Part shown: piece by piece, positions 1,634 through 14,580 of the stretch
Numbering within the stretch: the first letter of the stretch is position 1
Layout: each line of letters opens with the position of its first letter
NCBI GenBank assembly: GCA_013152375.1
Contig: JAADGM010000077.1
Span: forward strand, 1-52,379
Source: FCB group bacterium
GTDB lineage: Bacteria > Fidelibacterota > Marinisomatia > SCGC-AAA003-L08 > JACNLC01
Direction of reading: 5' to 3'
Length of the DNA: 52,379 nucleotides
Notes under the pieces: model-generated
Database searches by the model: none
What the model was told of the DNA's origin: nothing
Seen by the model: the letters and a program-made list of their open reading frames with translations, nothing else
Translations under genes and position numbers: made by a program

Positions 1634-3244
1634 TTATTTATTTTCCTCAAAATAAGGTTGGCCGGGTAATTTGAAATTGATCACCTGTTCTTTCATGGCT
1701 TTGCCGTCCACGGCTTTCCTGTCTTTGTAGAAATTCCATGTTTTCTGAACAGCCTTGTTATTCGTAAACTGAGTGCCGAGGTAGTAATCACGGTTTTCAA
1801 AACGATCCAGCCACAAGTCCCACTGGTCTTTGGAGAGCAGTCCCTTCTCGTAAGCGGCCTGGACATTCAATTTGACGCGCTCCCAGTAATCGTCGTAAGC
1901 TTTATAAACATATGGTGTCGTGTTCGTCATGGCTCCGATGCCCCAGGAATTTCCGGGAACATCATAAAGGGCGTAAGGCGTGAATTTTGCCGGACTGTTT
2001 GAAGTTACCCACTCCTCCGCCTCAGCGTCTCCGTGTTCAGCCGCCCAGGTGAGAAGTTCAACCATATCCTGCTGGATCTCCCACACCCCGTGCCACTGAG
2101 TATAATCAGCGCCCATCATCTCGGCACCGTGCCTGAATCTCCGCCCTTCGTGGTGCCAGGCCTTGTACATCAGGACCTCCGGCTCCTCATCCCAGCCGTT
2201 TAAAACCGGATTAGACATCATTTTATCATCAGCCTGAATTTGATTGATGAGACCGTTTTTGGTCAGTTTTTTGGTCCAGTAAACAAAGAACCGTCGCATT
2301 TCATTGTACTGCAAATTCACCAGATCAGCCGTAAGCAGGTACATCTGATAAAACCCGGGGGCGTGACAGCTCTGACAGATGGCCTCCATATTATCCCTTT
2401 TCTGCTGCCAGTCACCCAGGTTCTTCTCGTCCCACACTGTTCTGAAACTCCAGGGAGCCTGGGATTCCCAGGCGAGCCGGGCGCTGACATTATGGGTCAT
2501 GGGTTGGGATTCGTTACCGTCCATGTGGCAGGTTGTGCAAACGGGCGCCTCAATGGGGATGGGAGCATTGTCTTTAGAACTGAACCCCATATCCCAGTCT
2601 TTGCTCTTGGCCTTGAAGATGTTCCCGTGTTTGGATTCATTGTAGATTTCGATGTGCGGATGATCCGGACCGATATGGCATTCGCCACAGGTCTCAGGCT
2701 GTCTGGCTACAGCAATATCAAAACTGTGTTTGGGGTGACAGGCATCACATTCACCCACGCTGCCGTCGGGCCAGAGATTACCGATCTGATGGCATTGTTC
2801 ACAGCCATTCCGGGTACTTAAAGGATTTTCGAATGTTGCCCGGTCGGCATTTGCCAACAGCCAAAACTGATGGGCATGCTTGCTGTTATTAAATTCTGCC
2901 ACTTCTTTATCGTGGCATTCGGCGCAGTCTTTCGGCGTGGGATGCTTGGCAACCAGAATATCACTGCCCTCGCAGGTAAAGGCGTCAAAATCAGCTTTTT
3001 TCGCGGAATGGCATTCATAGCAGCCGACCTCATTGGCTGCATGCGCGCTGATGCCCCAGGCTTCAATTTGTTTTACGGCGATATTTTCTTTGCTGTGACA
3101 AGCGATGCATTTCGCCGACAGGTCATCGATCTCCAAAGCCGGGTCCAGTACGGGGGTTGTCCCTGCTGCCAGCATCGTCAGCAGCATACCGCACATCAGC
3201 ACCGCAGACCTGATGTTCAAAAGTTTGTGTTGGGTTGTTTTCAT
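1634..3244 (-). CDS. Octaheme c-type cytochrome, hydroxylamine oxidoreductase-like (HAO family)
   Basis: The 536-residue product starts with a signal peptide (hydrophobic residues about 12-30) and has eight CxxCH heme sites at residues 46, 75, 107, 148, 166, 186, 236 and 290. Number and spacing, plus a GPDHPH..IYNESKHG segment right after the sixth site and RHGAEMMGADYTQWHG near residue 390, fit the HAO family. The neighbouring Asp-His pair (194-195) corresponds to the conserved active-site pair as I recall it. Members oxidise hydroxylamine or hydrazine, or (in nitrate ammonifiers such as Campylobacter/Nautilia) are proposed to reduce nitrite. Next to narGHJI and narK, a reductive role is more likely; this is inference. 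No C-terminal anchor is present, so it should be soluble in the periplasm. Whether the C-terminal Tyr that cross-links heme P460 in oxidative enzymes is present could not be settled. A GAGGAG ribosome site precedes the ATG; the rrf2 gene ends 17 bases upstream. Confidence 0.85.
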   Translation of the reverse strand: MKTTQHKLLNIRSAVLMCGMLLTMLAAGTTPVLDPALEIDDLSAKCIACHSKENIAVKQIEAWGISAHAANEVGCYECHSAKKADFDAFTCEGSDILVAKHPTPKDCAECHDKEVAEFNNSKHAHQFWLLANADRATFENPLSTRNGCEQCHQIGNLWPDGSVGECDACHPKHSFDIAVARQPETCGECHIGPDHPHIEIYNESKHGNIFKAKSKDWDMGFSSKDNAPIPIEAPVCTTCHMDGNESQPMTHNVSARLAWESQAPWSFRTVWDEKNLGDWQQKRDNMEAICQSCHAPGFYQMYLLTADLVNLQYNEMRRFFVYWTKKLTKNGLINQIQADDKMMSNPVLNGWDEEPEVLMYKAWHHEGRRFRHGAEMMGADYTQWHGVWEIQQDMVELLTWAAEHGDAEAEEWVTSNSPAKFTPYALYDVPGNSWGIGAMTNTTPYVYKAYDDYWERVKLNVQAAYEKGLLSKDQWDLWLDRFENRDYYLGTQFTNNKAVQKTWNFYKDRKAVDGKAMKEQVINFKLPGQPYFEENK

Positions 3245-3261: not shown

Positions 3262-3732
3262 TTAATTGTTAGTTGATTTGATTCCAGGGAATTTCATCCG
3301 GTCTCTGAACCATTCGTCGGAAGACAGCAAGGCGGCCTGCTCAAAGGTTGTCGTCTGAAGCCAGCGGATGATCTCCCCCTTAAAAGTGCTCCATTGGTCA
3401 TGGAAGGGGCAATATTCCTCGAGATTATCGCCGCAGCCGGGGATTCCCATGACACATTCGGTAAGAAATTTATCACCGTCAACTGCTGTAATTACATCGA
3501 AGATCATGATGCTGTCCGGTGTTTTTTTCAGATATACGCCGCCGGTTTTCCCCCGTGAGGAACCCAGGATCCCGATGGGGATAAGCCTGGCCAGGGACTG
3601 GGAAAGATACGCTGCCGGTGCATTCAGCTTTTCTGCCAGGGCATTGGCCGAAACGGTCTTGCCGAAGGGTTCCTTAAGCAAAAGCAGCAGGGCGGAGATA
3701 ACATACATTGAACGCTGTGAGATAAGTGCCAT
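3262..3732 (-). CDS. Rrf2-family transcriptional regulator with three conserved-position cysteines
   Basis: The product has the Rrf2 winged-helix pattern: an N-terminal ISQRSMYVISALLLL helix, the LAEKLNAPAAYLSQSLARL recognition region, then GILGSSRGKTGGVYL (wing). Next comes a cysteine loop, C-x6-C-x7-C, at residues 93, 100 and 108 counted from the chosen start. In IscR, NsrR and RsrR the equivalent three cysteines bind an Fe-S cluster that senses NO, redox state or cluster supply, so this protein probably does too. The ORF track starts 24 residues earlier at 3804. I prefer the internal ATG because the extra N-terminus is not typical of the family and a palindrome overlaps the upstream ATG; neither start has a strong ribosome site. 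The gene directly precedes the HAO-like gene and is likely to control it and itself. Confidence 0.8.
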   Translation of the reverse strand: MALISQRSMYVISALLLLLKEPFGKTVSANALAEKLNAPAAYLSQSLARLIPIGILGSSRGKTGGVYLKKTPDSIMIFDVITAVDGDKFLTECVMGIPGCGDNLEEYCPFHDQWSTFKGEIIRWLQTTTFEQAALLSSDEWFRDRMKFPGIKSTNN

Positions 3733-3803
3733 TTTAATTCTAATATCGTTGTTAGAAATTAAAACTCTGTTTTGATGCTGTGCAAATAATATCTCGTGGT
3801 CCA

Positions 3804-3821
3804 TATATCCTGATGGATATA
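3804..3821. promoter_or_regulatory. Palindrome TATATCC-TGAT-GGATATA upstream of rrf2, candidate operator
   Basis: Two perfect 7-base arms around a 4-base centre, lying 72 bases before the preferred rrf2 start and overlapping the ORF-track start codon. AT-rich inverted repeats of this size are typical of Rrf2-family operators, and autoregulation is common in that family. The assignment to this regulator is inference. Confidence 0.4.
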
Positions 3822-4073: not shown

Positions 4074-5720
4074 TTAGGGGTTCTTTACATAGGCGTTGGG
4101 ACGCATGTAGAACCACCAGTTCAGAGCCAGACAGATTGTGTAAAAAATAGTGAATCCATAGAGCGCATATTCCGGTGTGGTGGCCTTGATCTGCTCCCCG
4201 AAAACTTTGGGAATGATAAAAGCTCCGTAGGCAGCAACGGCCGATGTCCACCCGAGAACAGGTCCCGCCTGTTCCTCGTTGAAGACCACAGCAATGGTCC
4301 TGAAGGTTGAGCCGTTCCCTACACCGGTAGCGGTAAACAAAACAATAAACAGGAGAAAAAAGGGCAAGAAGTATTGCTCGGGAGTGGCCGACTGGTAAGC
4401 CGCAGACATAAAATATGCTACACCCAGAGCGGAGGCGATCATCACTGCAGAAACGATCTGTGTGATCTTTGCACCGCCTACCTTATCCGATATCCAGCCG
4501 CCGACGGGTCTGATGAGTGCTCCGATAAAGGGTCCCATCCAGGCAAACATGAGGGCACTGGGTCCGTTTGGGTTAATGGCGCTGTGGACAAGTGTTCCGT
4601 CAGGTCCCGGAACATGCGTAAAACCGAAGATTACCTTTATCGCCAGTGGGAATGCTGCAGAATACCCGATAAATGACCCGAATGTCATGGTATAAATAAT
4701 GGTCATCGCCCAGGTGTGTTTATTATTGAAAATTTTATATTGGCGCTTGAGATTTTCTTTCATCGCTCCCGGTGACAGGGACTTCATTAAGAAGACGGTC
4801 AATCCGATGATGAGGGGCAAAATGATCCACTTATTCTTCAAAACAGCGTCTGTGAACCAGCTTCCACCTTGCAGTCCGGTGGGGGCGGGAAGAATAAAAT
4901 ATAGTCCCACCGCCGCCGTGAGAAAACCTATGAGCAGCAGATAACTGATCCGGGCAAATGCCATTAGCGGGCTCCCCGGATTTGGCGTGACGGCCTCTGA
5001 AACGATATTGTTCATTTTGAACCATCCGAAAAATGCCAGCGGCACCAGAAAAATCAGCCACACAAATCCGGCGTTCTGGATCCACGCATTGGTTCCGGCA
5101 GGGATCTTGCCGATGAGTGTCCCACTGGTATTCACCAGCACCATGGGATCGCCGGAGAGTCCGCCAAACAGGGCAAAAGTCATCACCAGCGGAACCAGTA
5201 TCTGCATGGTGGTCACCCCAAAATTCCCCAGTCCCGCATTAAGCCCCAGAGAAGTACCCTGAACTTTTTTTGGGTAGAAAAAACTGATATTGCTCATGGA
5301 GGAAGCAAAGTTGCCGCCACCGAATCCCGACAGAAAAGCCAGGAGCTGGAATATCCAGAGGGGCGTGTTTTTGTCCTGGAGAAATATCCCGGCGCCGAAG
5401 GCGGGGATCATGAGCAGTGCTGTAGTGAAAAAGATGGTATTTCTGCCACCGGCAATCCGGATAAAAAATGTACTGGGGATGCGGAGCGTAGCGCCGGTCA
5501 ATCCGGCAATTGCAGTGAGCGTGAAAAGCTGGGACTGTGTGAAAGGAAATCCCAGATTCAGCATCTGGACCGAGATGATCCCCCACATAAGCCAGACCGC
5601 GAATCCAACCAGCAGACTGGGGATTGAGATCCATAAATTCCGGTTGGCGATTTTCTTTCCGGTGGCCTGCCAGAAGTCATCATTCTCTACGTTCCATTCA
5701 GTAATATTAATTTGAGACAT
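4074..5720 (-). CDS. narK: NarK-type nitrate/nitrite transporter (NarK2-like, MFS)
   Basis: A 548-residue polytopic membrane protein of the major facilitator superfamily with about 12 hydrophobic segments. It carries the nitrate/nitrite porter signatures: GATLRIPSTF with the substrate-binding arginine (near residue 97), FGGGNFASSMSNISFFYPK (near residue 150) and GALIRPVGGWISDKVGG (near residue 410) with the second conserved arginine. It resembles the E. coli NarK / NarK2 branch, generally regarded as nitrate/nitrite antiporters that export nitrite made by the cytoplasmic-facing NarG site. A long cytoplasmic N-terminus of about 30 residues is present. An AAGGAAG ribosome site precedes the ATG. 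It is the second of two consecutive narK genes, 33 bases after the first. Confidence 0.9.
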   Translation of the reverse strand: MSQINITEWNVENDDFWQATGKKIANRNLWISIPSLLVGFAVWLMWGIISVQMLNLGFPFTQSQLFTLTAIAGLTGATLRIPSTFFIRIAGGRNTIFFTTALLMIPAFGAGIFLQDKNTPLWIFQLLAFLSGFGGGNFASSMSNISFFYPKKVQGTSLGLNAGLGNFGVTTMQILVPLVMTFALFGGLSGDPMVLVNTSGTLIGKIPAGTNAWIQNAGFVWLIFLVPLAFFGWFKMNNIVSEAVTPNPGSPLMAFARISYLLLIGFLTAAVGLYFILPAPTGLQGGSWFTDAVLKNKWIILPLIIGLTVFLMKSLSPGAMKENLKRQYKIFNNKHTWAMTIIYTMTFGSFIGYSAAFPLAIKVIFGFTHVPGPDGTLVHSAINPNGPSALMFAWMGPFIGALIRPVGGWISDKVGGAKITQIVSAVMIASALGVAYFMSAAYQSATPEQYFLPFFLLFIVLFTATGVGNGSTFRTIAVVFNEEQAGPVLGWTSAVAAYGAFIIPKVFGEQIKATTPEYALYGFTIFYTICLALNWWFYMRPNAYVKNP

Positions 5721-5753: not shown

Positions 5754-7298
5754 TTATTCTTCAGCAAACGCATTTTTAGGTTCGTCCAGCATGAAGAAAC
5801 AAATCAGAAAACTGATGGCTGCACCAGAGGCAATGGCCAGGAAAAATGTTTTGGAATCCACCAGTGAGAACAGCACCAGATAGAAAACCGCCCCGACATT
5901 TCCATAGGCCCCGGCCATTCCGGCGATCTGACCGGTCATCCGCCGCTTGATCATAGGGATGACCGCAAAGGTCGCCCCCTCGGCACCTTGTACAAACATG
6001 GAGCAAAGGATGGTGATGAACACGGAGACCACGAGCCACCAAATACCGTTGAACATGGGAATGATGGTTTGAACGCCGTCCACAACGGGGCCGTACTTAC
6101 CGATTTGCGCCATGCCGAAGAATCCAAGTGCGATCCCCACCATGTAGATGAGCATGGTCCGCTTCCGGTTGCTCATGCTGTCAGAGATCAGGCCCCCCAG
6201 CGGCCGTGCAAACAGATTGACGAAAGCAAATGACGCCGCGATCAGGCCGGCAAGGGTAGGTGTCATGATCAGACTTCCGGCGGAATTTGTGAGATTGGTA
6301 AAAGTAGTTTCAAAAAACATTGGCAGCATTGAGACCACAGCCAACTCGGCACCAAAATTGGCGAAATAAGTGCTGTTCAATGCGGCGACACTCCCCCAGT
6401 GATATTTCTCATTTTCGGGCACACCGGCTTTTAAAATGGGCAGATTGATCTGAAGCACTTTAATCACATGCGCCAGATAGATCAGCCCCAAAACCCAATA
6501 TACCGCCATGAGGACGGTATGCGATATAAGAGGCACACCTTCAACCCTCACATTACCGATACGCCAGGCGAGGATGCCCATGGCTCCCACCAGGGGAAAA
6601 GACCATACCAGATACTGGATCAGGTCACCATAAGAGGACACGGTCATAGGTTCCGTCTTTTTTGTTTTGTTGATCTGTTTTCCGGTAGGTCCGTCTGTAA
6701 CCAAAAAGTAATACCAGATACCGTAGATGAGGGAAACAAGACCATTGATCGCTAAGGCATAACGCCAGGAATTGCCATCCAACCCCAGAAAATCGTTGAA
6801 AAAATGAATTGCCAGCCAGGGCAGGGTCATTGCCGCCCAGGCCGAGCCGAAATTGCCCCACCCGGCGTAAAAGCCCTCAGCCCGACCGATCATCTTTGGC
6901 GGAAACCAATTGGCGACCATTTTGATTCCCACTACGAATCCGGCACCGATGGACCCTAATATCAACCGGGAAATGAGCAGCTGGGTAAAGGAATTTCCAA
7001 ATGCGAAAAAGAAAACTGGAATAGCCATACTGACCATGAGTCCGGAAAATACGATTCTGGGTCCGTAGCGGTCAATGAGCGCACCGATAACAATGCGCGC
7101 CGGTATGGTGAGCGCCACATTACAGATGGCCAGGACTTTGATATGCTCCTTAGTGAGCCAGTTGAGATTCCTCAGCATCGTCGTGGCCACGGGAGCCATA
7201 TTAAACCAAACGAAAAACGTAATGAAAAAGGCGATCCACGTGTAGTGTAAAACCCGTATTCTTTCCTGGCTGAAGTCAATGAGTTCAGGTTTGTTCAT
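5754..7298 (-). CDS. narK: NarK-type nitrate transporter (NarK1-like, MFS)
   Basis: A 514-residue MFS protein with about 12 membrane segments. Near residue 125 it has GIKMVANWFPPKMIGRAEGF followed by YAGWGNFGSA, and an early FFVWFNMAPVATTM segment, both typical of the NarK1 type, thought to bring nitrate in with protons. A conserved arginine-rich loop ARIVIGALIDRYGPR is near residue 68, and LFARPLGGLISD in the second half. The extra membrane segments in the middle and the FAEE end are unremarkable. An AAAGGA ribosome site precedes the ATG. It lies 44 bases after narI and immediately before the NarK2-like gene. The order K1 then K2 is the same as in the fused NarK of Paracoccus, here as two separate genes. 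Confidence 0.88.
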   Translation of the reverse strand: MNKPELIDFSQERIRVLHYTWIAFFITFFVWFNMAPVATTMLRNLNWLTKEHIKVLAICNVALTIPARIVIGALIDRYGPRIVFSGLMVSMAIPVFFFAFGNSFTQLLISRLILGSIGAGFVVGIKMVANWFPPKMIGRAEGFYAGWGNFGSAWAAMTLPWLAIHFFNDFLGLDGNSWRYALAINGLVSLIYGIWYYFLVTDGPTGKQINKTKKTEPMTVSSYGDLIQYLVWSFPLVGAMGILAWRIGNVRVEGVPLISHTVLMAVYWVLGLIYLAHVIKVLQINLPILKAGVPENEKYHWGSVAALNSTYFANFGAELAVVSMLPMFFETTFTNLTNSAGSLIMTPTLAGLIAASFAFVNLFARPLGGLISDSMSNRKRTMLIYMVGIALGFFGMAQIGKYGPVVDGVQTIIPMFNGIWWLVVSVFITILCSMFVQGAEGATFAVIPMIKRRMTGQIAGMAGAYGNVGAVFYLVLFSLVDSKTFFLAIASGAAISFLICFFMLDEPKNAFAEE

Positions 7299-7342: not shown

Positions 7343-8032
7343 TTAAATGAACCTTTGGTTTCGGTTCCAATTCCAGCGAACCATCTGGGGTTTCCGCCAG
7401 AGATAGGGATTCGGGACAACCAGCACATGCACGAGCCGTGAAAAGGGAAAAAGCAATACAAGCGTCCAGGCACATACGATATGCAGCTGCACGATCCAGG
7501 GCAGCGGAGTGATATAATTGATCTGGGGATTCAACTGCAGGAGTGAGACAAGATAAGGATTAGCAATGGCTGTAAACCATGAACTCCCCCAGGAATTGAA
7601 GGCCGCCGTCCCCAATCCGGAAAGGATCTGCAGGAAAAGCAGAGACAGAACAATCCAGTCCATGCGGCTGGTGACAATTTTCGCTTTGGGGTTCGTCCAT
7701 CTGCGCAGGAAGATTGCGAGTATTCCCGCCAGCGCGAACAGGCCTCCCATGAAAGCGCTTATTTCGAGGATGTATAAGCGGGTGAGCTCGCTGTTCCAGG
7801 CGAGTATCTGCCCGGGAAGCAGGAACGCCGCCAGATGCCCCAAAAGCACAAAGATGATACCGAAATGAAACGGTACGAGCCCCCAGAAATGGACCCTGTT
7901 TTCCAAAAACTGCGAAGAGAGACTGGAATAGGAAAACCCGTGGCTGATATAACGGTAAATTGAGAAAAAGATGAACGTGAACACCGCCACATAGGGCAAT
8001 ATTCCGTAGAGTATCATGCTAAAATACGTCAT
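7343..8032 (-). CDS. narI: Respiratory nitrate reductase gamma subunit (cytochrome b)
   Basis: A 229-residue protein with five hydrophobic segments that anchors NarGH in the membrane and takes electrons from menaquinol through two b hemes. Counted from the chosen ATG, histidines 56 and 66 (in PFHFGIIFVLLGHL) and 184 and 202 (in QLHIVCAW and SRLVHVL) occupy the positions of the four heme ligands of E. coli NarI (56, 66, 187, 205). The ORF track starts at a TTG at 8038; the ATG at 8032 is preferred because it lies 7 bases after a GAGG ribosome site. narJ ends only 2 bases before, as usual in narGHJI operons. Confidence 0.92.
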   Translation of the reverse strand: MTYFSMILYGILPYVAVFTFIFFSIYRYISHGFSYSSLSSQFLENRVHFWGLVPFHFGIIFVLLGHLAAFLLPGQILAWNSELTRLYILEISAFMGGLFALAGILAIFLRRWTNPKAKIVTSRMDWIVLSLLFLQILSGLGTAAFNSWGSSWFTAIANPYLVSLLQLNPQINYITPLPWIVQLHIVCAWTLVLLFPFSRLVHVLVVPNPYLWRKPQMVRWNWNRNQRFI

Positions 8033-8034
8033 GG

Positions 8035-8565
8035 TCAATCCTCATTTATTGAATATTTTTTTGTCAGATGTGTCTGCAGTGCCAGGATACATGAACGATA
8101 TGGATTGTCCTCAGGGACAGCGTTTACGATCTTTCCCAGAGCCGGGTTAATATAGGTTTGGGTGAATGAAACCGCATTATCGGGACTGAGGTTCTCAAGC
8201 ACCAGCAGACAATGGCTGAGATGGTCGGGCAGTTCTGATGTTTCGGGAATACCGAAATTTCTGAGATACTGTCTCATTGTTACCAGAAATTCCCCCCTTT
8301 TATAAGTTTCACCGTAGAGGTGCCAGCCCAGTTCCAGGCAGCAGTCGGGGTTCAGATCAAAAGTATAGGTAAAGGCTTCCTCGAGTCCTGCCAAATTCAA
8401 CCCGGCGACGGCCTCTTTGAAACGAGCCAGCATACCGGAAACCTCCGGTGACAATCCCGCTGACTCTGCGAGAGAACCGACGGCTTCCTGATACTCAGTT
8501 GTCGGATAGGAAAAGACGGTGGCGAACAGCCGATAACAGGACTGCGCAGTCCGGGTCATTTCCAT
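8035..8565 (-). CDS. narJ: Nitrate reductase assembly chaperone (delta subunit)
   Basis: A 176-residue, mostly helical protein of the NarJ/TorD redox-chaperone family. It inserts the molybdenum cofactor into NarG and holds NarGH until it docks on NarI. Recognisable features are YRLFATVFSYPTTEY near the N-terminus, the acidic centre LEEAFTYTFDLNPDCCLELGWHLYGE.YKRGEFL (the most conserved NarJ block) and the ELPDHLSHCLLVL segment. Sequence conservation in this family is low outside the central block. It starts 4 bases after narH with a GAGAGGA ribosome site and sits in the standard position between narH and narI. Confidence 0.9.
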   Translation of the reverse strand: MEMTRTAQSCYRLFATVFSYPTTEYQEAVGSLAESAGLSPEVSGMLARFKEAVAGLNLAGLEEAFTYTFDLNPDCCLELGWHLYGETYKRGEFLVTMRQYLRNFGIPETSELPDHLSHCLLVLENLSPDNAVSFTQTYINPALGKIVNAVPEDNPYRSCILALQTHLTKKYSINED

Positions 8566-8569
8566 GGGA

Positions 8570-10060
8570 TTACAGTCCTCTCACTGGTTTTTCACGAAAA
8601 CCAAACCCGGCATGCTGCTTGTACTCAAGCGGATCGTTCAGCATTTCGATAGCTTCTTCCCGGTGTGCCGGTGGTATGACGAAGCGGTCCTCGAGGGTGG
8701 CAATGGACGTAAGATGATAGATTTTTTCGGCTTCTTCCACTGTGCAGTCGGCCGATTTGAGCATCCCGGCCGCTTTTTCCAGGGAGATATCACCCACTGT
8801 CTTTGCCCGGCGCCAGGTCCGGACAGCCATTTCTTTTTTCAGAACATATCTCATTTTCTCACTGTCGCCGGCTGAGAAAAGGCTGCTTAAAAATTCAATG
8901 GGTACCCGTGCCTGGTCAAAATCAGGGAAAATTCCGTCGGCCATATTTTTTCTGGCTTCACCGTCCATAGAGGAGATTACCGGGAGCATCGGGGGAACAT
9001 AAAACAGCATGGGGAAGGTCCGGTATTCGATATGGGGCGGCAGGGCTAATTTCCAGACTTTAACGAATTTATAGACGGGGGATTCCTGTGCAGCCTGGAT
9101 TGTGTGTTCATGGACACCGTTTTCTGCAGCCAGCCGGATAATTTCAGGATCGAACGGGTCGAGGATCATGTCCCGCTGGGCATCAACCAGTTCGCGGTCC
9201 GTTTTCCCCGCCATGGTCTCAATTTTGTCTGCGTCATACAGAAGAACTCCCAGATAGCGGATCCTGCCGACGCAGGAATGAAAGCAGGCCGGTGCCTGAC
9301 CGGTTTCGATGCGGGGGAAACATAAAATACATTTCTCCGATTTTCCGGTGGTCCAGTTGTAATAGGTTTTTTTGTACGGGCAGGCAGCCACGCAAGATCG
9401 CCATCCCCGACACCGGTTCTGATCGATCAGTACGATTCCATCTTCACCCCGTTTGTACAATGCCCCCGAGGGACAGGAGGCCACACAGGCAGGATTAAGA
9501 CAATGGTTACAGATACGCGGGAAATAAAATAAGACCAGCCTCTCAATGGCAAACAACTGCTGTTTCTGTTCTTCGGTCAGGGCGCTGAGGTTTGGATCAT
9601 TTTGTGCATAGAGAGGTGAGCCGCCTAAATCATCGTCCCAGTTGGGGCCGGCTTCAATATCGATATATTTGCCTGTGACCATCGATTTGGGCAGAGCCGT
9701 GGGCTGGTCATCTCCCTGGGGTGCGTTGAACAGATTCTGGTAATCATAAGTCCAGGGTTCGTAATAATCGTCCATGGTGGGTAAGCTGGGATTATGAAAA
9801 ATATTTGCCACAATTCGAGCCTTACCGGTTGATTTAAGCCGGAGCTTGTTGCCGTCTTTTTCCCAGCCTCCGCGGTACTTTTCCTGGTCTTCCCATTTTG
9901 TCGGAAAGCCCGTCCCTGGTTTTGTTTCGACATTATTCCACCACATATACTCGGTGCCTTTACGGTCTGTCCAGATATTCTTGCAGGCGATGCTGCAGGT
10001 GTGGCAACCGATACATTTATCGAGATGAAAGACCATTGAAATCTGACTGCGAATGTTCAT
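8570..10060 (-). CDS. narH: Respiratory nitrate reductase beta subunit (Fe-S electron transfer)
   Basis: A 496-residue Fe-S protein carrying electrons from NarI hemes to NarG. Four cysteine groups are visible: CIGCHTCSIAC at residue 16, CNHCLNPACVASC, CRGWRSCVAAC and KCILCFPR..GQAPACFHSC. The Trp in CRGWRSC replaces a cysteine, which is the NarH hallmark that makes one centre a [3Fe-4S] cluster. The ORF track begins 42 residues upstream inside narG; the correct start is the ATG at 10060, preceded by AAGGA and giving MNIRSQISMVFHLDK, the usual NarH N-terminus. It lies 19 bases after narG. Confidence 0.95.
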   Translation of the reverse strand: MNIRSQISMVFHLDKCIGCHTCSIACKNIWTDRKGTEYMWWNNVETKPGTGFPTKWEDQEKYRGGWEKDGNKLRLKSTGKARIVANIFHNPSLPTMDDYYEPWTYDYQNLFNAPQGDDQPTALPKSMVTGKYIDIEAGPNWDDDLGGSPLYAQNDPNLSALTEEQKQQLFAIERLVLFYFPRICNHCLNPACVASCPSGALYKRGEDGIVLIDQNRCRGWRSCVAACPYKKTYYNWTTGKSEKCILCFPRIETGQAPACFHSCVGRIRYLGVLLYDADKIETMAGKTDRELVDAQRDMILDPFDPEIIRLAAENGVHEHTIQAAQESPVYKFVKVWKLALPPHIEYRTFPMLFYVPPMLPVISSMDGEARKNMADGIFPDFDQARVPIEFLSSLFSAGDSEKMRYVLKKEMAVRTWRRAKTVGDISLEKAAGMLKSADCTVEEAEKIYHLTSIATLEDRFVIPPAHREEAIEMLNDPLEYKQHAGFGFREKPVRGL

Positions 10061-10079
10061 AATTATTTTCCTTATCTGT

Positions 10080-13000
10080 TTACCACTTGAGTTCCGGGAG
10101 CTTACGGACCAAAATATGGGTATCGCGGTTATTCCCCACGGGTCCCCAGTAATTGAAATGATATGTGAACTGACCATAACCACCAACCATCAGATTGGGT
10201 TTCAGCCGCGTACGCGTGAGGCTGTTATGTCCGCCGCCACGGCGATTCCCGCGCATGGGAGATTTCGGTACTGACAATGTCCGCTCCGGAGAGTGATATT
10301 GAATGCAGATACCGGTGGGTATCCTTGCGCTGACACAGGCGCGGGTCACAACTACCCCATTGTCATTATAGACTTCGACCCAATCGTTATCATTGATCCC
10401 GATATCTTTAGCGTCTTTATCGTTCATCCACAGGGGTTCCACACCTCTGGAAAGTGTTGACATTCTGTGGTTGTCTCCGTAGGTGGAGTGAATATGCCAT
10501 TTCCCATGTGGCGTAAGGTAATTCAGCATTTTGGTTTGAGTCTCCTCCTTGCTGAAATGGATGTCCGAATACTGCTTTACGGTGGGTTTTGGTTTATACG
10601 TGGGTACATGTTCACCGAATTCAATATATCCCGGATGATCCAGGTAAAAATGCTGCCTGCCGGTGAGCGTTCTCCAGGGAACCAGTTTTTCTTTGTTATA
10701 TGTGAAGGGAGCGTAAGCCCTTCCGTCGGTGACGAGTCCTGACCACATGGGACTGTTCACAAATCGGCGGGGCTGGGCGATAATATCCTCGAAAGATACG
10801 CGGAAGTCGCGGCTTTTTTCAACCAGATCAGCCAGAGGAAGCCCTACGCGTTTCTCCATGTTCTTATAGGATCGGTATGACAACTCACCGTTTGTTACCG
10901 TGGCCAGGTGCAGAATAAGATTGCATACGTGTTTATCCTTGAACAAAGAGGGGTACTTCTCACCTTCCCATTCAACCGTTGGGTCGGTTTCCAGCATTTT
11001 ATCGTAAAAATCATCGATTTGATAACCGGTGCCATGAGCGCCAATACCGTTGTCCCGTGCCTTTCTTCCGAAGGATATGTACTGGTGATAGAGATTGCGG
11101 TAATCCCGTTGGACGATTTTCAAACCGGGCATCGTTTTTCCCGGCAGCGCTTCAATCTCTCCTGTAATCCAGTCTTTGATCTCAGTCTGCGCAATCTCCG
11201 CCGGCGTATCATGGGGTAGAGCTGCGGCGATCACATCGGTAACCTTATCCGGGAAATGGGCTTCGGCCAGCTCGGAAAACCGCTTGGAAATTGCTTTAAA
11301 AATATCCCAGTCGCTTTTGGTCTCCCAGACCGGCGGCACCGCTTCCGAGAGCGGATGGATAAAACTGTGCATATCCGTTGAATTCAGATCATTTTTCTCA
11401 TACCAGGTAGCGGCCGGCAAAACAATATCGGAGTACAGGGCCGATGTATCCATGCGGAAATTCAGATCAACCACCAGGTCCATCTTCCCCTGCGGGACTT
11501 TATCATGCCAGGTGACTTCTTTTACGGAGTCCTTTGCAAAGTTGCTGTCCCCGATGTGATTTTTATGCGTCCCGAGATAGTGATCCAGAAAGTATTCATG
11601 ACCTTTGGCGCTGGACATGAGGGCATTTCCCCGCCAGATGTACCAGATCCTGGGCCAGTTTTCGGCGGCATCAGGGTCCTCCACCGAAAATTTCAATTCC
11701 CGTTTTTTCAGTTGGTCCACAATGTATTTTTTAATATCTTTTTCGTCCGATGAGCCGGTAGCTTTAATGGCTTCTTTGACCAGATCCAGCGGATTTTTAT
11801 TGAACTGTGGATAAAAGGGCAGCCAGCCGTTCCGGACGGCTTTGATCTGCGTATCCACGGCATGACCCCGGGCAAAACAATTTTTGTCCTTATTTTTCGG
11901 TACTGAATGATATTGGGTAAATTCTTTTTCATAACGCCACTGGTCAGTGTGGATATAATGCCAGCTGGGGGCATTCTGCAGGCGCTGACCATCGAACCAG
12001 TCTTTACCCAGAGCAACGGCTCCCCATGATTCCCCGGGAGCCAGTTTTTCCTGTCCCACATAATGTGCCAGCCCGCCGCCGTTAACACCCACACATCCGC
12101 ACAGCATTAAAGCATGGATACCCGCACGATACATGAGATTTCCATGATACCAGTGATTGATCCCTGCACCGATAATGATCGTGCACTTACCGTTAGTCAG
12201 TTCGGCGGTCGTACCCCACTCGCGGGCGAATTTAATCAGATTATCTTTGGACAGTCCGGTATATTTTTCAGACCATGCCGGTGTATAGGGCAGGTCCGGG
12301 TCTTCGTAATCAACGGGGTAGTCGCCGTCCAGTCCGCGATTTACGCCATACTGCGCCATCATGATGTCATATACGGTGGTTACCAGTACCGTTTCACCCG
12401 AATCCGTCTTGAGCGCTTTGACCGGGACTCCCCGGGTGCGCGTAGTATCATTTCCGAAATCATCAAACTTCACTTGTGCAACCGAATCGTGCTGATCCAG
12501 AAAAGTCAGGGTTGGGTCAATGGGTGAATCGTCCACACTGTCCTTCAGCTCCAGGTTCCACTTGCCCTGATTGGTATCCCAGCGGTGCCCCACGGTTCCT
12601 TTCGGCATTTTCGGTGAGGAAGTAGTTGAATCCCACATGAGAAATTTCCAATCGCCATTATTTTCGGCTTTATATGAAGTCAACCGGTTGGCGCGAAGTA
12701 ATTGGCCCGGTGTGTAAATTCCGTCGGTTTCGCTGATTTCCACCAGCATGGGCAAATCTGTAAATTGTTTTGAATAGTTGATAAAATAGGGAGTTTTCTT
12801 TTCATGGTGGAATTCTGTCAGCAAGACATGGTTGACGGCCATCCACCAGGCGCCATCCTGACCGGCGTTGATGGACATCCACTCATCGGCATATTTGGCC
12901 ACCTGGTTGAAATCCGGTGAAAAAACCACCATTTTGGTTCCGTTATGGCGGGATTCAGCGGCAAAGTGACAGTCCGGTGTGCGGGTCATGTTCAGATTAG

Positions 13001-13730
13001 AACCCATCACCGCCAGCATTTTGGCATTATACCAGTCGGCGGATTCATTTACATCCGTTTGTTCGCCCCAGGTTTCGGGAGAAGCGTTCGGAAGGTCGCA
13101 ATACCAGTCGTAAAAAGACAGAGAGACGCCGCCCATGAGCTGCAGCATCCGCGAACCGGCAGCATAGCTGACCATGGACATGGCCGGGATCGGTGAAAAA
13201 CCGGTGATTCTGTCTGGACCATATTTCCGGATCGTGTAAATATTCGCAGCGGCAATAAGGTCCAACACGGTATCCCAGTTGGTACGGCGAAAACCACCCT
13301 TACCCCTGGCAACCTGCCACTGCTTCCGCTTGACCGGGTCTTCCACCATAGACTTCCAGGCTTCAACCGGGTCTTCGTACAATGCTCTGGCATTTGACCA
13401 TAGATCAAGTAAAATTCCGCGAATATAAGGATATTTCACCCGTAACGGGCTGTACAGATACCAGGAATAGGATATCCCCCGCTGACATCCCCTGGGTTCA
13501 TAGGCCGGGAGCGAACTTTCGAGTTTAGGATAGTCCAGACCCTGCATTTCCCAGGTGACGATACCGTCTTTCACATGGATATTCCAGGTGCAGCTCCCCG
13601 TGCAGTTTACTCCGTGAGTACTTCGGACAATCTTATCGTACTGCCAACGGTTTCGGTAGAATTCCTCCCATTGTCTTTGATGGGGGACCACATCGTCCCT
13701 GATCCAGCCGTTTTTTGATTTTTCAGTCAT
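10080..13730 (-). CDS. narG: Respiratory nitrate reductase alpha subunit (Mo-bisMGD catalytic)
   Basis: A 1216-residue molybdoenzyme that reduces nitrate to nitrite. Near the N-terminus [11 protein letters not shown] followed by PRGCQRG gives the His-Cys3 pattern (H39, C43, C47, C82) that binds the FS0 cluster. The [19 protein letters not shown] block near residue 210 is the segment that supplies the aspartate ligand to molybdenum in E. coli NarG. Later blocks ([65 protein letters not shown]) are also typical. The N-terminus lacks a twin-arginine signal, so the active site should face the cytoplasm, unlike the exported archaeal-type NarG. Length is close to E. coli NarG. The gene starts 10 bases after the cytochrome c gene. 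Confidence 0.96.
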
Positions 13731-13740
13731 GGGATTACCC

Positions 13741-14580
13741 TTATTTTGTGGATTTTATAAAATATTTACCAGCCGATACCATGGGTTTTCGCACCGCCAT
13801 AAACCGGCGGTTCCAAATGCCCCCGATGAGCACAAACAACAGCAGGGTCGCAAGTGCGCCGTAAAGTATGAAATTGGCTATTGAGGCCAGTGTGGGGGCA
13901 CTGGCAGTTTCGGCTTCATTTTTCAAAAAGGCAGTGAGTGAGATTATTTCAGTTTCAGTCAGTGGGCGTTTTGAAAAGATGGGATTCATTGTTGGGACCG
14001 GAGGTAATTTAAGCCAGTTGGTAAGCCCTCTCACCTCACCGAGTTTTTTATAGGCGCCTGTGAGATTGTGCCCAAGTTTGCCGCCGCCAAGTCCGAACAT
14101 ACTGTTAATATTATGACAGGAGACACAGGGAGCGGCGCCGTTTGCCAACTTCTTTTTCCCGAGGAATAGATTTTTACCGGCAATTATATCGTCGGTAGTA
14201 AAGGTAGGAGGTACGTAGGAATCAGCGACAGCAGCACCCGAAACCGATTGTGTTTTAATGTAATCCAGCAACTGTCCGGCAAGGGTCTCATTAATGCCGG
14301 GCGCCGGTGTCATCGCAGCACCATTGGCCTCTCTCAGCAGTTTTGCGGCATAGGCATCACCCGAGGCCAGGACCCCTGCGGGATCCATGATCCATTGAAC
14401 CAGCCAGGGCCGGTCTTTGCGTTCTTCAACTCCCTTCAGGTCAGGGCCAACGAGCCTGCCGCCACCGATTGTATGACAGACTTTACAATTCGCTTTAAAA
14501 TACTGACCCGGATCAGTTTGTGAGAAAACGACGGATATGCCCAAGGCGGCAAGACAAAATAACCCTATCTTTAAATTCAT
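13741..14580 (-). CDS. Membrane-anchored diheme cytochrome c of the nitrate operon (NarC-like)
   Basis: A 279-residue protein with an N-terminal signal peptide (about 1-20), two cytochrome c domains with CKVCH at residue 32 and CVSCH at residue 152, likely distal methionines (M90 in AAMTP and M198 in PTMNP), and a C-terminal membrane segment (about 233-254) followed by a basic tail. It would sit on the outer face of the cytoplasmic membrane. Thermus nitrate operons also start with a diheme cytochrome (narC) ahead of narGHJIK, where it serves the nitrate reductase. The same position here suggests electron transfer to or from NarI or a role in assembly. It could alternatively deliver electrons to the periplasmic HAO-like protein. 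A GAGGGG ribosome site precedes the ATG. It is the first gene of the nar operon. Confidence 0.8.

Follow-up and report, generated by a model that had tools for sequence, protein, structure and literature searches.

An octaheme cytochrome beside a nitrate reductase cluster in a Fidelibacterota genome lacks the P460 cross-link tyrosine and is probably a nitrite reductase

Does the octaheme c-type cytochrome (OCC) encoded on a 52,379-nucleotide contig of a Fidelibacterota bacterium (JAADGM010000077.1, the whole of which we call the window) withdraw electrons from its substrate or deliver electrons to it? The protein shares its fold, its eight hemes and an Asp–His pair with Nitrosomonas HAO, Kuenenia HAO and HDH, and in those three enzymes a tyrosine is cross-linked to the active heme of the neighboring subunit, whereas the window protein has a tryptophan in its place. 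The initial annotation had asked whether this HAO-like protein is reductive, had made the tyrosine, present in oxidative forms and reported to be missing from nitrite-reducing ones, the key test, and had named beforehand the finding that would count against it, a tyrosine precisely at the cross-link position.

Counted from its ATG, the protein of 536 residues opens with a signal-peptide-like stretch and contains CxxCH motifs beginning at positions 46, 75, 107, 148, 166, 186, 236 and 290; eight such motifs within one open reading frame are not a product of chance. Its Pfam match is Multi-haem_cyto (PF13447, E = 2e-25), and its relatives in the PDB, found by sequence (4qo5, 4n4j, 6t5e, 4fas, 6m0p, 1fgj, 6hif and 6h5l), all belong to the HAO family, the best match being Ignicoccus IhOCC (4qo5). 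The active-site pair, Asp194–His195, is unchanged throughout 23 aligned relatives, and both features on which the first reading of the locus relied, the eight heme sites and the Asp–His pair, are indeed present. A Foldseek search gave 11 significant matches (E from 1e-10 to 1e-6), every one an HAO/OCC entry; the query was an AlphaFold2 monomer of medium confidence at best (pLDDT 67, pTM 0.60), built without hemes and poor in the active-site half, and it backs the fold only. With eight hemes, the HAO fold and Asp–His after heme 6, the protein belongs to the HAO superfamily, and the pentaheme NrfA is ruled out, there being no PF02335 (Cytochrom_C552) match anywhere in its own genome bin.

The cross-linking residue of Nitrosomonas HAO is Tyr467 of the neighboring subunit (4FAS; PMC5872139). 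It lies in the block G456-LA-H459-VNPGGWT-Y467 of the 4fas chain, that is, H459-x7-Y467; the corresponding blocks are AH-MSMYNQT-Y (H407-x7-Y415) in the 4n4j chain of Kuenenia HAO and AH-GSWNDAT-Y (AHGSWNDATY) in HDH, so that His-x7-Tyr is common to the oxidative trio. Position 415 of the 4n4j chain we take to be the published Tyr451 of Kuenenia HAO, given a leader of 36 residues. The chain of 6h5l, whose PDB title reads 'reducing HAO-like protein complex Kustc0457/Kustc0458', has His-x7-Trp. Ignicoccus IhOCC has Met-x7-Phe at the block, and the window protein has Met376-x7-Trp384, followed by His385-Gly386.

The many tyrosines of the C-terminal region had been described as not reliably alignable by eye; at the sequence level the cross-link site does align, to residue 384. 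A MAFFT alignment of the window protein's relatives with IhOCC and the three oxidative chains carries Tyr467 to Trp384, and the stretch from the His/Met to the site is free of gaps; hhalign, run with the oxidative set against the window protein's relatives, carries Tyr467 to Gln383, one residue earlier. In PMC12758564 the reductive residue is described as His, and the register that this implies would fit His385. Tyrosine is absent from the position in all three registers (MAFFT, hhalign and literature); the nearest Tyr, Tyr381, stands three residues before the site, no register places it there, and residue 381 is Tyr or Phe across the close homologues and Trp in IhOCC. The Trp is found in all 26 aligned W-H-G sequences, the window protein counted in; in three related genomes (L017, L018 and L025), Glu or Lys takes the place of the His that follows this Trp (WEG, WKG). 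The passage of PMC8940962 that cites Haase 2017 gives the mark of epsilonHao as Trp in place of the tyrosine and, eight residues earlier, Met, and Trp384 and Met376 fit the signature described there exactly. The tyrosine that would have spoken for an oxidative enzyme was looked for and is not there, and the suspicion of a reductive protein is supported, with Trp, Gln or His at the site. Judged from the alignments, the protein would thus not be an oxidative HAO or HDH with a heme P460, for which Tyr at the Tyr467 position is the criterion; the missing Tyr correlates with reductive function and predicts, rather than proves, the direction of catalysis.

Residue 384 lies just before the last 150 residues, which had been said to hold many tyrosines. 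We counted 11 of them (residues 424, 427, 445, 447, 450, 453, 465, 487, 488, 506 and 531), all beyond the segment shared with HAO; a Pfam search with the C-terminal extension gave no match. Only Tyr453 is invariant across the ten members of the close group, and a cross-linking role for any of the 11 was rejected, the extension being lineage specific; we know of no precedent for a cross-linking Tyr in an extension of this kind. That the protein is an oxidative hydroxylamine or hydrazine dehydrogenase, as the HAO fold and the Asp–His pair might suggest, seems extremely unlikely: apart from the missing Tyr and the poorly conserved tyrosines of the extension, the match to the HDH model is partial (72.9 bits, cut-off 900), and the neighborhood is one of nitrate reduction.

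The genes of this neighborhood (Table 1) are transcribed from the minus strand in the order sensor kinase, response regulator, diheme cytochrome c, narG, narH, narJ, narI, narK, narK, Rrf2 and OCC, the sensor kinase and a response regulator of sigma-54 type, both named by inspection, standing at the head. The octaheme gene thus has the linkage to a respiratory nitrate reductase expected of epsilonHao, with narGHJI and narK adjoining, and the diheme cytochrome c is a possible electron carrier. As the end of the Rrf2 gene is 17 bases from the start of the OCC gene and approximately 270 bases separate it from narK, Rrf2 and OCC may form a two-gene unit of their own. At 3732-3763, directly beside a probable start codon inside the Rrf2 gene, there is an imperfect 12-bp inverted repeat (TTTTAATTCTAA / TTAGAAATTAAA, with 8 bases between), possibly an autoregulatory operator, in surroundings that are AT rich and hold other repeats. 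The Rrf2–OCC pair is absent after narK in two genomes of the same family with 84-88% identical NarG, and the pair has therefore either joined nar in the window lineage or been lost in the others. In another genome (G094), some 3-4 kb separate a nar cluster from a further W-H-G octaheme gene (L094:13754-16875) that has Rieske and cytochrome b upstream, from which it follows that nar and OCC genes came close more than once.

Table 1. Octaheme gene, its key sites and the adjoining nar cluster in the window
Feature	Position	Strand	Remarks
Octaheme c-type cytochrome, HAO family (epsilonHao-type), predicted nitrite reductase	1634..3244	-	536 aa
C-terminal extension, ~residues 405-536	1634..2032	-	present in close homologue group; no Pfam match
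Key block G373-AEMMGADYTQ-W384-H385-G386	2087..2128	-	W384 at NeHAO Tyr467 position, M376 eight residues earlier
Active-site pair Asp194-His195, directly after heme-6 CxxCH	2660..2665	-	unchanged in 23 aligned relatives
Rrf2-family regulator (IscR/NsrR superfamily)	3262..3804	-	
NarK-type nitrate/nitrite transporter 2	4074..5720	-	
NarK-type nitrate/nitrite transporter 1	5754..7298	-	
NarI-like cytochrome b subunit	7343..8038	-	position and similarity to relatives' nar clusters
NarJ-like chaperone	8035..8565	-	position and similarity to relatives' nar clusters
NarH-like Fe-S subunit	8570..10186	-	uncertain start codon; listed coordinates overlap narG
NarG, cytoplasmic-type nitrate reductase catalytic subunit	10080..13730	-	88% identical in a same-family genome
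Diheme cytochrome c, C-terminal hydrophobic stretch, nar cluster	13741..14580	-	

Matches to the window protein were found in 55 of 245 genomes of the phylum. A tree of 47 sequences divides the relatives into three broad groups: the close group of the window protein, with 10 sequences (UFBoot 100, SH-aLRT 97), which takes in one genome each of the Ignavibacteriae and the Anaerolineales; a mixed group in which most sequences read W-H-G at the site; and a strongly separated group of 14 sequences with W-Y-G. The tree program warned of long branches meeting, and we draw nothing from its deep joins. All ten close homologues (nine in the tree and a partial one in G241) are directly preceded by Rieske and cytochrome b genes, and most of them, those on contigs of sufficient length, belong to a nap-like cluster that includes a tetraheme protein, NapA being named there by motif and position. 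The order, tetraheme/NapA-like/Fe-S/Rieske/cytochrome b/OCC, is that of Caldithrix abyssi, whose epsilonHao (Cabys_2556) lies in a nap-Rieske-cytochrome b cluster and is without the Tyr (PMC5317091); by that published description, it resembles the window protein as an octaheme HAO homologue linked to nitrate reductase and lacking the Tyr. The window protein differs in standing beside narGHJI and narK with an Rrf2 gene of its own, and no Rieske or cytochrome b genes adjoin it. Its N terminus differs as well: the anchor of the homologues is longer and more hydrophobic (mean hydropathy 2.5-3.1), whereas the short stretch of the window protein (best 19-residue mean 1.8) looks like a cleavable signal peptide, a distinction drawn from hydropathy alone. 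The location with nar and not nap, the missing Rieske/cytochrome b neighbors and the changed N terminus make the window protein unusual.

The rest of the genome, a bin of 150 contigs that is 89% complete, was searched family by family with profiles; given this completeness, the missing NrfA, NO reductase and Hcp may reflect assembly gaps. Within it, we found no match to NrfA (PF02335) and no NirS. The NirK match at C53 (67 bits, cut-off 296) is a multicopper oxidase, and the NIR_SIR match is sulfite reductase-like and adjoins a PAPS-reductase-like gene. As far as an 89% complete bin allows the conclusion, nitrite reduction has no candidates in view other than the octaheme proteins, of which the window protein is the one placed with nar.

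From these observations, we infer the localization, direction, substrate, product and electron donor of the window protein, which is probably a periplasmic nitrite reductase of the epsilonHao type serving nitrate ammonification. NarGHJI would reduce nitrate to nitrite in the cytoplasm, NarK would export the nitrite, and the octaheme protein, drawing on the quinol pool either directly or by way of a c-type cytochrome, would reduce it at the active-site heme; because that heme carries no covalently attached Tyr, electrons are expected to flow into the substrate. The product would most likely be ammonium, perhaps accompanied by a little hydroxylamine or NO. Such a reductive role in nitrite metabolism is what the sequence evidence makes most likely, given the Trp384/Met376 signature, the Trp in 6h5l, the nar, narK and Rrf2 neighbors, the nap-like clusters of the homologues and the lack of other nitrite reductases among the matches in the 89% complete bin. 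On the other side, the usual Rieske/cytochrome b neighbors are absent, and IhOCC (4QO5), the nearest solved relative by both sequence and fold, has to our knowledge no settled physiological role. IhOCC has Phe at the site and PDV where the window protein has Trp and PDH, the latter keeping the HAO-type Asp–His.

Ammonium, reached by complete reduction, is a better fit for the end product than NO or free hydroxylamine. The Rrf2 family includes NO sensors, and the adjacent regulator could be read as a sign of an enzyme stopping at NO. The Kuenenia protein HAOr (kustc0458, 6H5L), which likewise combines the HAO fold with Trp at the site and is reductive, makes NO from nitrite (PMC12485887), and the window protein might do the same. 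We consider this unlikely: the residue at -8 is Met in the window protein and His in HAOr, which moreover pairs with kustc0457; the closest relatives occupy a Caldithrix-type epsilonHao setting; and the Rrf2 protein is a weak match to the NsrR model, at 22 bits for a cut-off of 182. In the 89% complete bin we found no NO reductase, the sole COX1 (PF00115) match being a cbb3-type CcoN-CcoO fusion, and NO would thus be left without a respiratory outlet.

The epsilonHao proteins of the Campylobacterota (Nautilia, Caminibacter and Campylobacter) are, going by the descriptions in the relevant passage of PMC8940962 and in PMC3701875, like the window protein in having Trp at the site, Met at -8 and a nitrate setting. 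The HaoA of Nautilia, an HAO homologue without the Tyr and linked to nitrate reduction (PMC3701875), is the precedent for a reverse-HURM step, in which nitrite would be reduced to hydroxylamine and Hcp would finish the work in the cytoplasm. For the window protein, this is very unlikely, as prismane/Hcp (PF03063) had no match in the 89% complete bin while five control genomes did match, and the operon has neither Hcp nor the NapC/NrfH-type donor proposed for the Campylobacterota, in which epsilonHao is proposed to occur together with Hcp. A NapC-like multiheme protein is encoded elsewhere, on contig C82 (L107, G000:C82, ~4245-4499): it is a large cytochrome of more than 590 aa with a NapC/NrfH-like N terminus, a candidate quinol dehydrogenase. 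Roles in the reduction of other substrates, such as sulfur species, or purely in electron transfer have been proposed within the HAO family (PMC9213671); given nar and narK next to the window gene and the nap-like clusters around its homologues, we regard them as highly unlikely here.

The genome encodes a second octaheme HAO-family protein of 415 aa on contig C101 (L002:1447-2694). Its cross-link block reads H-x7-W-Y-G; the Tyr, which directly follows the Trp, is conserved in 14 of the 14 members of the W-Y-G type in the phylum (among them L043 and L045-L055); in several genomes, a gene for a nine-heme cytochrome is found near the W-Y-G octaheme gene. One could picture two octaheme enzymes of opposite bias, the window protein reducing nitrite and the C101 paralogue oxidative through a Tyr heme cross-link; the idea is quite improbable, but if true of the paralogue, a part of the phylum would join the nitrifiers and anammox bacteria in having a hydroxylamine-oxidizing arm. 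Elsewhere in the genome (G000:C143:9412-10398; L056, L106), a Rieske–cytochrome b pair precedes the gene of a nine-heme cytochrome that has a hydrophobic helix at its C terminus, and the locus looks like a bc-type complex in which the multiheme protein replaces cytochrome c1; this pair differs from the one linked to the octaheme gene in the homologues.

Overall, the window protein is most likely an ordinary member of a known and often misannotated kind of enzyme. Annotation routinely labels genes of this kind hydroxylamine dehydrogenase (hao), and they can be taken as evidence of nitrification, whereas the Trp/Met signature and the nar setting point the opposite way, to nitrate ammonification, with the nitrogen kept in the system. 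An epsilonHao-type enzyme that stands away from the Rieske and cytochrome b genes and beside nar also makes the question of the electron donor testable.
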